From: Mycoplasmataceae bacterium
Lineage (GTDB): Bacteria > Bacillota_I > Bacilli_A > Mycoplasmatales > Mycoplasmoidaceae
Direction of reading: 5' to 3'
Length of the DNA: 38,695 nucleotides
Assembly (NCBI GenBank): GCA_031258945.1
Contig: JAIRME010000010.1
Coordinates: forward strand, 1-38,695
Below the pieces are notes generated by a model. The model saw only the letters and a list, made by a program, of their open reading frames with translations, had not been told where the DNA came from and ran no database searches. The translations under genes and the position numbers were made by a program. Positions 1-32,436 of this stretch are shown here, piece by piece; position 1 is the first letter of the stretch, and every line of letters starts with the position of its first letter.

Positions 1-1743
1 TCATTCATTCATTTTATCAAGAAACATATTCTCCCTTCCAAATTCTGAATTGCTGGAATACATATTAGCAAAATATATTTCTCCTCTATTTCAAGTGTAA
101 GGATAATTATCGTAATCGGAAATTGGTGTTGATCATGTATTAAAGTTTCCAATTCCATGGATTGAAAAACTTGTGCATATACCTGCTCTAGCTACTCCTT
201 GCCCATCATCAATGCTTCCTATCAATGATTCTCCTAGACTGTTAGGTGTATTTTTCAATCAATAACATAATCCTAATACTATGTCTCAATAATATAGTTC
301 ATTAGTAATATCCACATCATCATTTTCTAGAGTATATAAAAGACCGGCATTATCATTGTTAATATTACTTGTAATATCAAATCAATCTGCCATAGTCATA
401 ACACCATCTGCTCACCCAATTTTGCTATTCAAATCAACATTTAAACTTTCAAGTTTATTTCGAGCTTCTGCAATAACAACATCAACATTGCTTGAGTCTA
501 CGTATAGATCATTTTCTTGCTTATCATCATAAGGTAGATTTACTCAATTTACATCTACTGACGAATCTTCATAAAAAAGTCCACCTTGTGGATTAGTAAT
601 CGTGCAAGTACGATGTTCTTGATCTATGTCAAAAGTAGCTCCATCAAGAATGGAACTTCATACTCAAGAAATTGTTAGTGGGATTTGTGTTTCATTTTCA
701 GGATCATTTAATCTGATTCCATCAATAATATCTTGTTTGGTTACATTGCCATCGTCTCAATCAATGCTTGAGGTATTAGCAGTTTTTAAATTATGAAAAT
801 CAATGGCTTCATCTAATGAATATTCACCGATGGGAATTAAAAAATAAAATTTGATGCTACCTTTATATTTTGAATCACCAATATTTGCTTCAATCACTCC
901 TCCATAGACATTAGTCAATTTAATACTGCAAGCTGCTTTTAATTCAGTTTGAGCATCAGCATCTATTTGTGGGTTAGCAATAAAAAACTTAGTCCAAAGC
1001 GCTTCAGTTTCATGCTCATTATGTAGTAAATTACCGATATACGGATTACCATAAGTCATAAAAGAATTTATATCAATTTTGAACGTATAGGATATTGTAA
1101 TGTCATTGCTATTAAATCATCCATAATCATTGGATTTCATTGAAATATGTGCAATTTTATGTTGATTGTCTGGCCCAGGATCTGTTGAAGTATTAGAATT
1201 ATGTTGTATATATTGCACTGTGGTTAGATTCTTAATGGTGTTTGGATTAGAATTCATGATTTCTTCAAAAAGTTCTGTTAGATCATTGTCTTCCAAACTA
1301 TCGTTTAATGAAGTATTTAAAATAAGAGTATTAATATCCACATTCAGTACTATAAAAGTTACATGCAATGGATTTTTAAATGTTTTATCGTCTTGATTGA
1401 GAACTAATCTAACACCAGTTACATCCTTAGTATTTACATCAAAGTGACAATGACTCTTAATTTTATTTTGTAATTTTTTTGATACTTTATTTAGTTCAAA
1501 TAATTTATTGAATAATGTATCATCATTGTTGTTTGGTACACCTTTTAAATCAGTAATTTTAAATATGTAAGATAAATCAGTTTCATTATCTAAAGTATTG
1601 TCATGATTATTTGCTCAAATCGCATATCCTATGCTCACTCCCGTACCGCAAGTTAATGTGGCTATAGAAGCAACAATTAATGCCCTTTTAGATTTACGTT
1701 TCTTTTTTCATGCTTGGTATTCTTTATTATTTACATTTATCAT
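1..1743 (-). CDS. Large signal-anchored surface protein, 3' end outside window
   Basis: At least 581 codons read from ATG at 1743 to the window edge with no TAA or TAG; several in-frame TGA codons are read as Trp, which is why the frame looks broken under the standard code. Residues 13-20 are strongly basic (KKKRKSKR), followed by one hydrophobic segment at about 21-42, then a long Asn/Asp/Ser-rich region. This predicts an uncleaved N-terminal anchor with the bulk outside the cell. A Cys lies in the hydrophobic segment (LTCGTG), but the lipobox fit is weak. A GGAGTGGAG Shine-Dalgarno sequence precedes the ATG. The N-terminus resembles that of the protein at 28258-29448. I recognise no catalytic domain. 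Function unknown; surface exposure is inferred from topology. Likely expressed from the poly-C promoter at 1885-1905. Confidence 0.85.
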
Positions 1744-1773
1744 ATTCTCCACTCCGGTTTATAAAGTAATAAA

Positions 1774-1807
1774 AACAAGTCCTTTAGCTAAAGCATAAGG
1801 TCTTGTT
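1774..1807 (-). terminator. Terminator-like hairpin in the leader of the surface gene
   Basis: Inverted repeat AACAAG(T)CCTT at 1774-1784 and AAGG(T)CTTGTT at 1797-1807: a 10-bp stem with one mismatch and a 12-nt loop. Read on the minus strand, the 3' arm runs into GTTTTTATT, as in an intrinsic terminator. It lies between the predicted promoter (1885-1890) and the ATG at 1743, so it could act as an attenuator. It could instead end a short transcript, with a second promoter nearer the gene; TATAAA at about 1758-1763 is a weak candidate. Confidence 0.5.
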
Positions 1808-1829: not shown

Positions 1830-1846
1830 TAGTACTTACCGTACTA
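1830..1846 (-). other. Leader hairpin, perfect 6-bp stem
   Basis: TAGTAC at 1830-1835 pairs with GTACTA at 1841-1846 around a 5-nt loop. It lies in the predicted 5' leader of the surface gene, between the G8 tract and the terminator-like hairpin. Possible first element of an attenuator. No known riboswitch class recognised. Confidence 0.35.
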
Positions 1847-1856
1847 TTACATTTAT

Positions 1857-1905
1857 CCCCCCCCTATTTATCTTCATATGCTTCATTATACAATAGGGGG
1901 GGGGG
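1857..1905. repeat. C8/G10 homopolymer inverted repeat around a promoter
   Basis: C8 at 1857-1864 followed by TATT, and AATA followed by G10 at 1896-1905, form a 12-bp inverted repeat. The minus-strand TATAAT (1890-1885) lies in the loop. Runs this long are exceptional in this AT-rich sequence. Both tracts are prone to replication slippage, and together they could extrude a cruciform. Confidence 0.8.
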
Positions 1906-9482: not shown

Positions 9483-9626
9483 GCATTACACATAAACTCA
9501 ACTCGTCTTAAGGAAATTAATAAGAAAATAACTCAAACTTTATATTTAGATAATTCATTAAATTCAGAAAAATAAATAAGTCATTTTTTGGAAAAATGTC
9601 TATTACATAGTATAGAGGTAATCAAA

Positions 9627-11951
9627 ATGACAAATTTAAATAAAATATTTCTTTGAGCTTTGATTTGTATCCCTTCTACCATACCATTTATGGCTAATGC
9701 GAACAAGCATAGTTCAACAATCAAATTAAATAATATAGAACAACCTATTGACTATCTACAAATGATGCATACCACTACTTGTGCAACACAACAATTAATG
9801 ATAACTAAAGGATATGGCGATAAAAAAGATCATAGTAAAATCATTCGGTTTGATAATGTATTTAAAAAAGTCTATTTAAGTCCTGATAATCATAATACAA
9901 ATGTAAAATCATTGCTATCTTCATGTCGTCAATTAACTACACCCACAAATGGTCAAGAAGATTATGGTTATTTCCAATACAGCATTAATGATAATGAAAC
10001 CAAAAAAGATCTAAATGAACGAATTGAAGATTGAAACAGTACATATTTGAACAATTTATCCACTAATTTAAACTCCATTACTAATTTTGGTATGTCCAAT
10101 ATAAATTTAAATCTAATTGATAGCGATATTTGGCCCGTTAATAAGCAACTATCCGAGTTGAATATACCTTGTGGATTTAGAGATGATAAACTTAATCGTT
10201 GCACTTTTGCTAAAGTTAGTGATGCTCCATTTGACAAAAATAATCTTAAGAATACGCATGATAATATTATGGGTTTACCTTTCTTTAATATTAAAGAAGA
10301 AAAAATTATTGATAAAAGAAATAATCCGAGAGAGCATCTAATTGCATATTGATTAAAAGGAACCAAAAATATTTTCGATATTAATGATATTACTATAAAC
10401 GCACCATTAATAGGCTGCTATGATTTATCTAAATTAATTAGTATTAACAGTGCTAGTTTTAATCAAAAAAGCATTCATCTATCGTTTAATCAAAATTTCA
10501 TTGAAAAAGCTAAGCAACTGGATGAATATCATCAAAATATTAAAAAACAATTAGAAAATAAATGAAATGACATTCATAAATTAAAACCAGACTTTAGCAA
10601 ATATGCTTTCAATAGTTTAATAGACATGAATTTATTGTCTCCAAACAATATTGATAATTTGCAATCATTTCTAAAAACTAATCATTTAAATTTAATAGAT
10701 GTTTATACATATATGAAGGCAATTCAATCAAAAACTACAATTAATTTTCTTAATTCATTAGGTTTTAATCGATATGATAATCCTTTAAGGATCATTAATG
10801 ATTTAAAAAATAAAATGAAACTAAGTTTAAATTATGCAATTAGTAATCCGCTACAATCCAATCAATGAATTAAACAAACTAATATTTTCAATTTTTCTGA
10901 TTTGGAAAATGGTGTCGATATTTTAGTAGGCCAAAAAGATAATAACATCTGTAAATTCCGTCTAGATTCATTAGTTAGTAATGAGCTTGATACAAATGAT
11001 TTGTACATAGGCTCACAAATAATTAATAAATTTAATTTAAATACTGACCTTATTAAGAATGATGATAATAATATTTATGAAATAGATAAACCTATTGTAA
11101 CCAAAGTTCAGTTCAAAAATAATGATCCAATTTATAACAGAAATTATTCAGTCAATGAAATAAGTAATAATGAATTATTAAAAGAATATATTATTTTAAA
11201 AACTAACTATGACGAATTAGGAGACTGAACACTTTTAAATAAAGACCAATATAAAATTACGAGAAATCAACACAATGCAACAATTAAAATCTCTGTCTTT
11301 TTAGACGACAACACATTTGAATACACCTATGATGGTTTTAAAACTGCTTCCATAGTAATAAAAGATATCGACGGTTCTATAAGTGTAAATAACTTAATAG
11401 CCGATGATTTAAACAATGAAAAAATTAGAGAGCTCATAAAATTAAATGGTATTCAATCATCTCTAATAGAAAGTATGACTTTTTCAATACAAACCTTGGA
11501 TGATTACAAAGGTACAGCTACAATTTGTATTAAGGAATCACCAGAAGAAGATTATTTGAATAAAACTTTTGAAATTTTTAATTTGAAACCTTATTTTATT
11601 GAACAAAATAAAAAAATTAACAATTTGATTTTAAAAAAGAAACCTAGTGAAATTTCTGAAAACGAATTTAAAAACAATTTTATCAAAATGAGTGATGAAT
11701 TCAATAATAGACATATCAATGATTTAAGTATTTCATTACAAGCAGATGATAACAAAAAAGTTCTAATAGCAAATTTAAGCTATAACGATATCAAGACTAA
11801 TCAAAAAATTGATTTAACATATAGATATGATTTTGATAAAAAGTTTATAAACCTAACATTAATTATCGGTATTATTGGTCTCTCTATAATCGGTTTACTA
11901 ACTGCTAGTATCTTCATCTATAAAAAAATAAGAAAACCTAAATTACAATAA
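9627..11951 (+). CDS. Large exported protein with C-terminal membrane anchor
   Basis: 774 aa, with TGA read as Trp at about 9654 and several later sites. Residues 1-26 look like a cleavable signal peptide (hydrophobic core, then PFMANA, a likely signal peptidase I site). The mature region of about 700 residues is rich in Asn, Asp, Lys and Ile. One membrane helix near residues 742-764 is followed by the basic tail KKIRKPKLQ. This predicts a type I protein, outside the cell but held by its C-terminus. A rare strong Shine-Dalgarno AGAGGT lies 7 nt before the ATG. The few Cys residues, such as those at about 51 and 90 and in GFRDDKLNRC, might form disulfides. No domain recognised; adhesin or surface role possible but unproven. 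Its last 9 nt overlap mtaB tail to tail. Confidence 0.85.
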
Positions 11952-29448: not shown

Positions 29449-29518
29449 GTTTTTTCTCCGTACCCAAATAGAGATTTTAGTCTCATATAACTTAATCTAT
29501 CTTCAATCGTAGGAAAAG

Positions 29519-29552
29519 ATTATACAACGGAGGGGGGGGGGAATTGAGTGAT
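29519..29552 (-). promoter_or_regulatory. Promoter with C10 spacer tract, second surface gene
   Basis: Minus strand: TTGTATAAT, -10 at 29524-29519, preceded by TCCG and C10 (29541-29532) and then AATT. The -35 match is weak (ATCACT, 29552-29547, 3 of 6, spacer 22). Beside the copy at 1885-1917 it shares AT[GC]ACT, the ten C residues, TTG before TATAAT, and GAAGATA[AG]AT 10 to 14 nt downstream. It lies in the spacer after purH. Confidence 0.65.
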
Positions 29553-29570
29553 AAATTTTAGTTAACAACT

Positions 29571-31067
29571 TTAGTGTTTGAAGTGGCGAACACCTGTAAA
29601 AACCATCACCATTTGATGTTCGTTTGATGCATCAATCGAATCTTGATCTTTTAATGAACCACCTGGTTGAATAATAGCTTGAATACCATATTTAGCTGCT
29701 TCATCTACTACATCACGAAAAGGGAAGAAAGCATCAGAAGCTAACACAGTAGCCCTTTTACCTCGTTTTAAAGCATCTAACGCTGGTCAAATGCGATTAA
29801 CTTGTCCACCACCAATACCGACTGCTACACCATTATGAGCAACAACAATAGCATTAGATTTAACAAATTTTACAACGCGCATGGCGAATAATAAATCTTT
29901 CATCTGTGCATCAGTGGGTTTTAATTTAGTGACAATTTTAAGATCATCAATAAATTTTCGATCTTCAGATTGTACTAATATTCCTCCATCAACGGATACC
30001 AATGTATGCGTGTCTTGTGGTTTATTGTTAAATTTAATTACATGTAATTTTTTCTTAGTTCTAAGAATGTTTAGTGCATCGTTATCATATTCAGGGGCGG
30101 CAATTACTTCTAGAAAAATTTTTATCATTTCTTCAGCCACTTCCTTAGTTACTTTTCGATTAAAGGATACAATCCCTCCAAATATACTAGTTGGATCTAC
30201 TTCGTAAGCTTTAATATATGCATCAAAACTATTTTTGCCAATGGCAAAACCACAAGGAGTATTATGCTTTAACGCACAACAAGCAGGTTCTTCAAAATCA
30301 GATACTGCTTTCCAAGCAATATCTACATCTTTTAAGTTATTGTATGAAAGTTCTTTGCCATTTAAAATATCAAAAGTGTTCATAGCACCATCTACCATTG
30401 TGTTACTATAAAAACTAGCTGATTGATGTGGATTTTCACCATATCTTAGTGTCTTATTTTTCATAAAAGAGGCATTATAAAATGCTGGATATGCTTCATT
30501 AAGCATAAATTGACTAATTGCACCATCATAAGCACTTATTAAATTAAAAACTTTACCTGCTAACCTACGTTTTAAATCTAAAGTAATATCCGTTTGATTC
30601 ATTTGTTCTTGAACAATTTTGTAATCGTTTTTATCACATATTACAACTACATCTTGAAAATTTTTAGCTGCTGCTCTTAGCATGGTAGGCCCACCAATAT
30701 CGATGAATTCTACTTTAGCTTCAAAAGTTAAATTTTCTTTAACTTTCTGGAAGAACGGATATAAATTGACTATCACAAAATCTATTGTATTTATATTGTG
30801 TTCACCAATTTTATTCATATGATGTTGATTATCACGAATAGCCAAAATACCGCCATGAATAACAGGATGTAATGTTTTAACACGACCATCTAGAATTTCT
30901 GGAAATTGAGTGATTTCGCTTACCTCAATTACTGGAATTCTATTATCTCTAAGATAACGATATGTACCACCTGTGGAAATGATCTCAATACCTTTTGTAA
31001 CTAAAAATTGTGCAAATTCTAGAATACCTTCTTTATCGTAAACACTAATTAGGGCACGTTTTTTCAT
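29571..31067 (-). CDS. purH: Bifunctional AICAR formyltransferase / IMP cyclohydrolase
   Basis: 498 aa. Last two steps of IMP synthesis. N-terminal cyclohydrolase domain (about 1-195) starts [20 protein letters not shown], with [25 protein letters not shown] near 65 and [14 protein letters not shown] near 124; C-terminal transformylase domain with [13 protein letters not shown] near 205, [22 protein letters not shown] near 262 and the closing [21 protein letters not shown] chose ATG 31067; the longer reading would overlap the upstream gene. The Trp of NRIWPALDAL is TGA. 8 nt after the small membrane-protein gene. Confidence 0.96.
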
Positions 31068-32097: not shown

Positions 32098-32436
32098 ATG
32101 AAAAAAGAAGTAAAAATCGTTACCTCAGATCATAATCCAGTACAAGTTGGTGATGGTGTTGTTGTTAGTTGAAAAACCAAAACATCACCCAAATCAAAAC
32201 CTGAACCTGTACCTAAATCGCGAAAAAGTTTAGATGTGCGTATCGCTGAAGTTTTAACAAAAGCTTTAGAACCAGTAATGTCTCGTTTAGATAAAGTTGA
32301 TACACGTTTAGACAAAATGGATGGTCGTTTAGATAAGATGGAAAGCCGTTTAGACAAAATGGATGGTCGTTTAGGTAAGGTGGAGAGTCGTTTAGGAATT
32401 CTCGAAAAGAGAGTTACTAACCTTGAAACTCATTAA
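32098..32436 (+). CDS. Small coiled-coil protein with heptad tandem repeats
   Basis: 112 aa. The first part (KKEVKIVTSDHNPVQVGDGV) is a conserved-looking beta segment; a Pro/Lys-rich linker follows (SPKSKPEPVPKSRKS); then residues 63-107 form five to six heptads of the type RLDKM[DE][GS], and the end is LEKRVTNLETH. The regular Leu and Met spacing predicts an oligomeric coiled coil. Similar heptad proteins, such as the DUF16 type of mycoplasmas, are common in mollicutes, but I cannot confirm homology. No membrane segment, so probably cytoplasmic. Function unknown. Stands alone, convergent with the flavoprotein gene. Confidence 0.8.
32284..32388 (+). repeat. Five tandem 21-bp coding repeats
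   Basis: Five units beginning CGTTTAG at 32284, 32305, 32326, 32347 and 32368; units 2 and 4 are identical. A sixth partial unit follows. Units keep the frame (7 residues each), so copy-number change would lengthen the coiled coil without a frameshift. Confidence 0.85.

Follow-up and report, generated by a model that had tools for sequence, protein, structure and literature searches.

A poly-C promoter family and a candidate repeat-gated attenuator leader at surface genes of a Mycoplasmataceae bacterium

Many surface genes of the Mycoplasmataceae bacterium studied here appear to carry a second switch beside their promoter, in which a ribosome runs into, or stops short of, a transcription terminator. 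In the reading that we consider probable, a C10 tract flagged in a preliminary description of this DNA is a promoter contingency locus, that is, a homopolymer prone to slippage that lies next to the -10 box of a gene for a surface protein, and many members of the same poly-C promoter family, including the site at 1740-1905, combine it with a leader that would gate an attenuator by its reading frame.

Genome, window and tract inventory

The window, i.e., the whole stretch of 38,695 nucleotides that was analysed, is contig 33 of a draft genome (G000) of 835 kb in 46 contigs, which is 86% complete and was compared with other species at one assembly per species. Frames in this genome read TGA as tryptophan. 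C8 has eight overlapping matches in the window vs 0.04 expected by chance, and a genome-wide pattern scan found 74 tracts of C7 or longer. Most of these are promoter tracts, G tracts of leaders (on the opposite strand), or G tracts in the signal peptides and N-termini of surface genes; the remainder lie partly within other genes and partly at no assigned place. The third class is represented in the window by the tract at its end, which, read on the minus strand, is a run of G in the reading frame of a lipoprotein signal peptide (GGISTLTFSLTSC); a related case in the genome is C25:1502. The features discussed below are collected in Table 1.

The window itself terminates inside a tract. By a hand count, a C7+/G7+ tract is no more than 700 bp away from 18 of the 92 contig ends of the genome, vs about 5.5 expected from tract density. 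The assembly thus seems to break at repeated leaders, so that the number of loci given here would be a lower bound.

Table 1. Coordinates of the features discussed, as window positions except where locus labels are given
Feature	Position	Strand	Remark
C10 promoter tract, first site	1896..1905	-	read in sequence
-10 box TATAAT, first site	1885..1890	-	read in sequence
Leader ORF, present frame, 13 codons and stop	1836..1877	-	ATG 7 nt past -10; predicted leaderless
G8 tract within leader ORF, putative second switch	1857..1864	-	read in sequence
Intrinsic terminator between leader ORF and gene	1771..1807	-	fold z -3.1; family covariation
Signal-anchored surface gene behind leader, 581 aa visible	1..1743	-	cut by contig start
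Flagged gene, 396 aa	28258..29448	-	N-terminal hydrophobic anchor
-10 box TATAAT, 7 nt past C10 tract	29519..29524	-	within TTGTATAAT, 29519-29527
C10 homopolymer tract, flagged promoter	29532..29541	-	read in sequence
-35-like hexamer TTATCA	29549..29554	-	4/6 match, weak; inferred; 24-nt spacer through C tract, unusual
C8 tract, window/contig end	38688..38695	+	third tract class; frame read by eye
Methylase-linked leader-like loci	L252 153-1292, L257 188-1324, L250 175-1341		R2 scores weak, ~41-47 bits

The flagged promoter

Read on the minus strand, the flagged promoter has the sequence C10-TCCGTTG-TATAAT, followed by 70 nt and the ATG of the gene, with GGAG 7 nt ahead of that ATG. The preliminary description had assigned to this promoter the C10 tract, TTGTATAAT, GAAGATAGAT and ATCACT. 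All four are present on the minus strand as described, ATCACT at 29547-29552 and GAAGATAGAT at 29495-29504, the latter just outside the start of the range that had been given. From the -10 box to the gene, neither a terminator-like site nor a significant fold (z -0.97) was found, and a leader ORF with repeat and terminator is absent at this site (29532). The promoter here is of a simple poly-C type that lacks a leader switch. The length of the C10 tract would most likely tune promoter strength by shifting the distance to the -35-like element.

The flagged protein matched no Pfam family. Homologues were found in four of 35 other genomes of the genus, in one of which the match is short and confined to the N-terminus. 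The homologous gene has a G8 run abutting the -10 box in G019 and a C8 run within its first codons in G003, so that repeats recur at this gene in differing forms; no tract was seen at the homologue in G008, and the fourth genome is G024.

Poly-C promoters across the genome

The preliminary description had proposed a dispersed family of such surface genes and suggested a genome scan for C runs followed by TATAAT. Run as C6-N(0-10)-TATAAT, the scan found 15 distinct places, vs none for a reversed-pattern control. A gene is visible at 14 of them, the fifteenth running off a contig end, and in 13 of these 14 the product is a predicted lipobox, signal-anchored, secreted or membrane protein (the class was assigned with a simple hydropathy and lipobox script plus judgement by eye, and surface location is a prediction). 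The exception, C39:13055, precedes a degenerate copy of a membrane-protein gene and then a gene that resembles NAD synthase by eye. Surface and membrane genes hence dominate the set, equal frequency of the motif at housekeeping genes was not seen among the 15 places, and a family dispersed genome-wide, as proposed, is supported.

A hexamer resembling the -35 element matches on average 4.09 of 6 positions before the 23 promoter tracts but 3.41 before the remaining 51, which makes a promoter-spacing model plausible. The apparent -35/-10 spacers over the 23 promoter tracts range from 14 to 34 nt, and the spacing rule is not uniform.

The site at 1.9 kb and the leader family

The two window sites had been taken as copies of one module. 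Rather, the site at 1.9 kb has a two-tract arrangement of promoter and putative attenuator leader, whereas the flagged site has the promoter tract alone. Its layout (1740-1905) runs from the -10 box over 7 nt to the leader ATG, then through a G8 tract and an intrinsic terminator to the gene; the poly-G tract and the terminator did not figure in the preliminary description. The leader is now in an intermediate frame, with a stop 28 nt ahead of the terminator. As for the reported recurrence between the two sites, the poly-C runs and their pairing with TATAAT stand above chance, whereas the GAAGATA[AG]AT and AT[GC]ACT words do not. Both ATGACT and GAAGATAAAT are present at the 1.9-kb site, and GAAGATAAAT is there the start of the leader ORF. 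Among the tract contexts inspected, the two words co-occur solely at the two window sites, and they were dropped as parts of the module. The shared N-terminal plan of the two gene products is borne out weakly, by an alignment of 42 residues with 38% identity (E = 1e-4).

The same leader recurs across the genome. In 18 first copies the order is the -10 box, 6-7 nt, ATG, 9-16 nt, a tract of G8-10 and a small hairpin, followed by a CU-rich stretch, the intrinsic terminator, a short gap and a surface gene, mostly with a ribosome-binding site. A covariance model built on these copies (R1) finds 20 leaders in the genome (21 rows, one of them an antisense partial), and two more leaders have GA repeats. 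An ATG and a simple G tract are found in 18 of the 20, and in all 18 the ATG stands 6-7 nt past the -10 box. With this spacing, transcription is expected to start at the AUG or close to it, and the leader is therefore predicted to be leaderless. In nine of the 20, a C7+ tract in the promoter is combined with a G7+ tract in the leader.

The terminator and inner hairpin covary: 96.9% of cells are paired, whereas sliding the partners gives no more than 59.2%, and ten pairs are altered on both sides, vs three or fewer after sliding. The leader regions of paralogues within the genome are 85-97% identical, and the paralogues are recent by this measure; tract length differs between near-identical copies, for example, G9 vs G10 in leader regions that are 94% alike. 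This is an indirect sign that the tracts may vary independently, as the preliminary description had suggested. One leader, C36:1818-1958, lacks the ATG, has an interrupted G tract and lies before a lipoprotein start; it is a naturally broken switch. The tract is likewise interrupted in the leader at C44:4533.

Leaders in related genomes

Related species carry leaders with poly-G or (GA)n. Among 39 other genomes searched, R1 found the leader in G024, G021, G019 and G006. A wider draw gave hits in six of 198 genomes, this one included, adding G045 and, beyond the genus, G176 with a weak hit (E 2e-4). A second model for the GA leaders (R2) had hits in 26 of 36 genomes of the genus, yet it also hit 91 of 198 genomes sampled from the order, with a top score of 49.5 bits beyond the genus. 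None of three such R2 loci beyond the genus that were inspected had a leader, and two look like AG repeats within methylase genes. R2 is unspecific at lower scores, and only hits above 50 bits were therefore counted as family members. These occur in the present genome, G021, G019, G042, G024, G045 and G006. A hit of 51.8 bits in G013 looks false and was not counted, and the hits of 37-50 bits in G001, G046, G047, G048 and G043 are doubtful. G042 has 47 R2 matches at E <= 0.001, many of them below 50 bits.

In G047 and G048, GA leader-like elements with a terminator also lie ahead of EcoRI-type methylase genes (PF13651), and G048 has one ahead of an N6-methylase gene; attenuator-controlled restriction-modification is possible at these loci. 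In other members of the order, L264 and L266 (G126, G056) have AG repeats of 28 and 36 nt within genes judged by eye to resemble type III methylases.

The single-open-frame rule

In 50 of 54 leaders exactly one frame is open from the repeat into the terminator, vs 26.6 +- 3.6 expected. A second set, found with a different model, gave 32 of 36 (16.9 +- 2.9 expected). Leaders related by descent are not independent counts, and 28 representatives below 60% identity were hence examined separately; 24 of them follow the rule (13.2 +- 2.6 expected). Expectations come from dinucleotide shuffles of the same spacers, and not one of the observed counts was reached in 1000 simulations. The first set comprises 19 leaders of this genome and 35 from four related genomes. 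The second was drawn from 40 hand-picked R2 hits, 20 from other genomes including this one and 20 of the 47 counted for G042, and still includes the doubtful hits of 37-50 bits (G001, G046, G047, G048, G043) and the one in G013. R1 hits without a simple tract (C44:4533 in this genome and L165 in G024) and four R2 hits without a terminator (L232, L237, L251, L256) were dropped before the counts. A stem with a T run is present in all 54 leaders with a tract of the first set and in 36 of the 40 hits of the second.

At present, five of 18 leaders in this genome are in the open phase, eight have an early stop and five are intermediate; these near equal thirds are as random phase would give. Stops in the closed frames of these leaders lie 11-45 nt ahead of the terminator foot. 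In the GA leaders the nearer closed-frame stop is at most 4 nt from the foot in 31 of 50.

Proposed mechanism and alternative explanations

The anatomy and recurrence of the leaders, the covariation of the terminator, the single-open-frame rule and the bias to surface genes, all of them observed in sequence, suggest the following mechanism. Slippage would change the length of the poly-G tract (poly-GA in relatives) within a leader ORF that would start, without a leader of its own, at or near the 5' end of the transcript, and tract length modulo 3 would set the frame. In the open frame the ribosome would translate into the terminator, the hairpin could not form, and the gene would be transcribed. 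In the other frames the ribosome would stop earlier, the hairpin would form, and transcription would end. Loci with both poly-C and poly-G tracts would have two switches in series.

One alternative is that only the promoter tracts act, via -35/-10 spacing, and that the poly-G tract and terminator are passive or insulate against read-through. The 15 places against a control of zero and the enrichment of -35-like hexamers before promoter tracts agree with this, as does the precedent of Neisseria opc, porA and fetA in the portion of that literature consulted (PMC2791445). However, leaders without a poly-C promoter tract retain the G/GA tract and the frame rule, the single-open-frame counts of both sets are left unexplained, and a terminator this close to the promoter that serves it would be hard to explain unless antitermination occurred; we consider this alternative unlikely. 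Nor is it probable that the tracts have no part in switching and arose by neutral expansion in the intergenic DNA next to duplicated surface genes, even though the paralogues are recent and recurrence is partly by descent. The frame rule holds over divergent species and different repeat units, and the repeat keeps its position between the -10 box/ATG and the terminator; we give neutrality a slim chance.

Two further alternatives give the tracts another function. The purine tract may act as RNA, the G/GA repeat pairing with the CU-rich stretch before the terminator so that length alters the fold. RNAalifold does pair the G tract with this stretch, and GA leaders also have a U/C-rich stretch past their hairpin, but the helix does not overlap the terminator, would be altered little by one extra base, and predicts neither one open and two closed frames nor an ATG 6-7 nt past the -10 box. 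We regard this as improbable, though a little less so than neutral expansion. Least probable of all, and by our estimate very remote, is that the C and G tracts are arms of an inverted repeat and the promoter segment flips. The tracts do face each other some 30-48 bp apart around the -10 box in nine leaders, and promoter inversion is known in mycoplasmas according to the part of the source consulted (PMC11868660); however, the -10 box points into the leader ORF in all leaders of this genome that have one, no flipped copy was seen among them, and leaders without a C tract are equally well kept. The poly-C promoter with a frame-gated leader at many members is the explanation in which we have good, though not full, confidence.

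Comparison with known systems

In E. coli pyrBI, a translating ribosome close behind RNA polymerase prevents the terminator downstream of the leader ORF, and the input of this attenuator is the UTP level. A ribosome would likewise keep the terminator from acting in the leaders described here, but, unlike in pyrBI, the input would be heritable repeat length.

The closest likeness is to the pilus operons of Streptococcus gallolyticus. In the accessible portion of the report on pil1, GCAGA repeats in the leader-peptide gene shift the frame and longer leaders prevent the terminator, and mutations in the terminator or at the start of the leader had the predicted effects (Danne et al., 2014, PMC3894217). 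When every frame carried stops, heterogeneity was lost and expression was slightly above expectation, and the mechanism reportedly works in a closely related species too, again in the part consulted (PMC3894217). For pil1 and pil3 the same portion associates far-upstream stops with low expression and stops within or beyond the terminator with high expression, and a stop 4 bp before the hairpin also went with high expression (PMC3894217). In view of this last case and of the short distance from stop to foot in the 31 GA leaders noted above, GA leaders may be on in two of the three phases by the S. gallolyticus rule.

As in pil1/pil3, to judge by these excerpts, the repeat lies in a 5' leader-peptide ORF, its unit is not a multiple of three, and an intrinsic terminator precedes the gene. 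The excerpts describe GCAGA units, a leader ORF led by a ribosome-binding site, and two pilus operons; here, in contrast, the units are G or GA, the ORF is predicted to be leaderless, about 20 loci occur in one genome, the system is predicted from sequence, and the leader is often stacked on a poly-C promoter tract.

The promoter tracts resemble those of Neisseria opc, porA and fetA, as described in the part of the source consulted, in having a homopolymer beside the -10 box, often just past a -35-like hexamer, at surface genes (PMC2791445). Unlike there, the apparent spacers vary more (14-34), many sites have a putative downstream attenuator, and the effect of length is a prediction. Slippage-type repeats at mollicute lipoprotein genes are likewise on record in the accounts consulted, namely, a poly-A switch at the surface-lipoprotein gene p78 of M. 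fermentans (PMC3711429) and a GAA repeat switch at vlhA of M. gallisepticum. The p78 type is resembled by the intragenic signal-peptide tracts here. The excerpted descriptions of p78 and vlhA give other repeat units and mention neither a leader ORF nor a terminator. In M. pneumoniae, ribosomes coupled to RNA polymerase have been observed, in the portion of that study consulted (PMC8116511).

Novelty and significance

In a literature search made mostly outside subscription journals, repeat-gated attenuation was found only for the two S. gallolyticus pilus operons, and no report of it in mycoplasmas was found. The words 'gallolyticus', 'leader' and 'terminator' are absent from a 2025 review of phase variation. 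What is new here is the scale, the predicted leaderless leader, the mono- and dinucleotide repeats, and the stacking on a poly-C promoter. Whether a mollicute genus uses the repeat-gated attenuator as a general surface-antigen platform we judge to be evenly balanced; such a platform would comprise dozens of loci per genome, interchangeable G and GA units, an ORF free of a ribosome-binding site and leaderless, and, at nine of the 20 loci of this genome, a further slippage-prone tract, this one in the promoter, so that expression would depend on two independent states of spacing and frame together and the pair would make a heritable AND gate.

If the mechanism is true, a gene may be silent despite an intact-looking promoter and coding sequence, and scans for coding repeats would miss it; there would also be a sequence rule that predicts on and off states from the genome, and natural alleles would make ribosome-RNA polymerase coupling in mollicutes testable. 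If the platform is true, it would also cover phase-variable restriction-modification by way of the leader-like elements ahead of EcoRI-type methylase genes in two species. To find this logic at many loci and with different repeats in a small-genome lineage would mark repeat-gated attenuation as a general solution.

Other observations in the window

The 787-aa protein at 9588-11951 has a hydrophobic segment in its N-terminal part and is anchored in the membrane by its C-terminus; it is likely another large surface protein, here without a poly-C tract. Beside the flagged gene, PurH (29571-31067, minus strand) is 49-71% identical to 11 hits, its closest matches being Clostridium and Fusobacteriaceae proteins, and horizontal gain of purine genes in a mollicute is possible. 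At 32098-32436 there is a small protein with repeated RLDKMD/RLGKVE-like units, and about 150 bp of this region are 86% identical to a stretch of contig 8.
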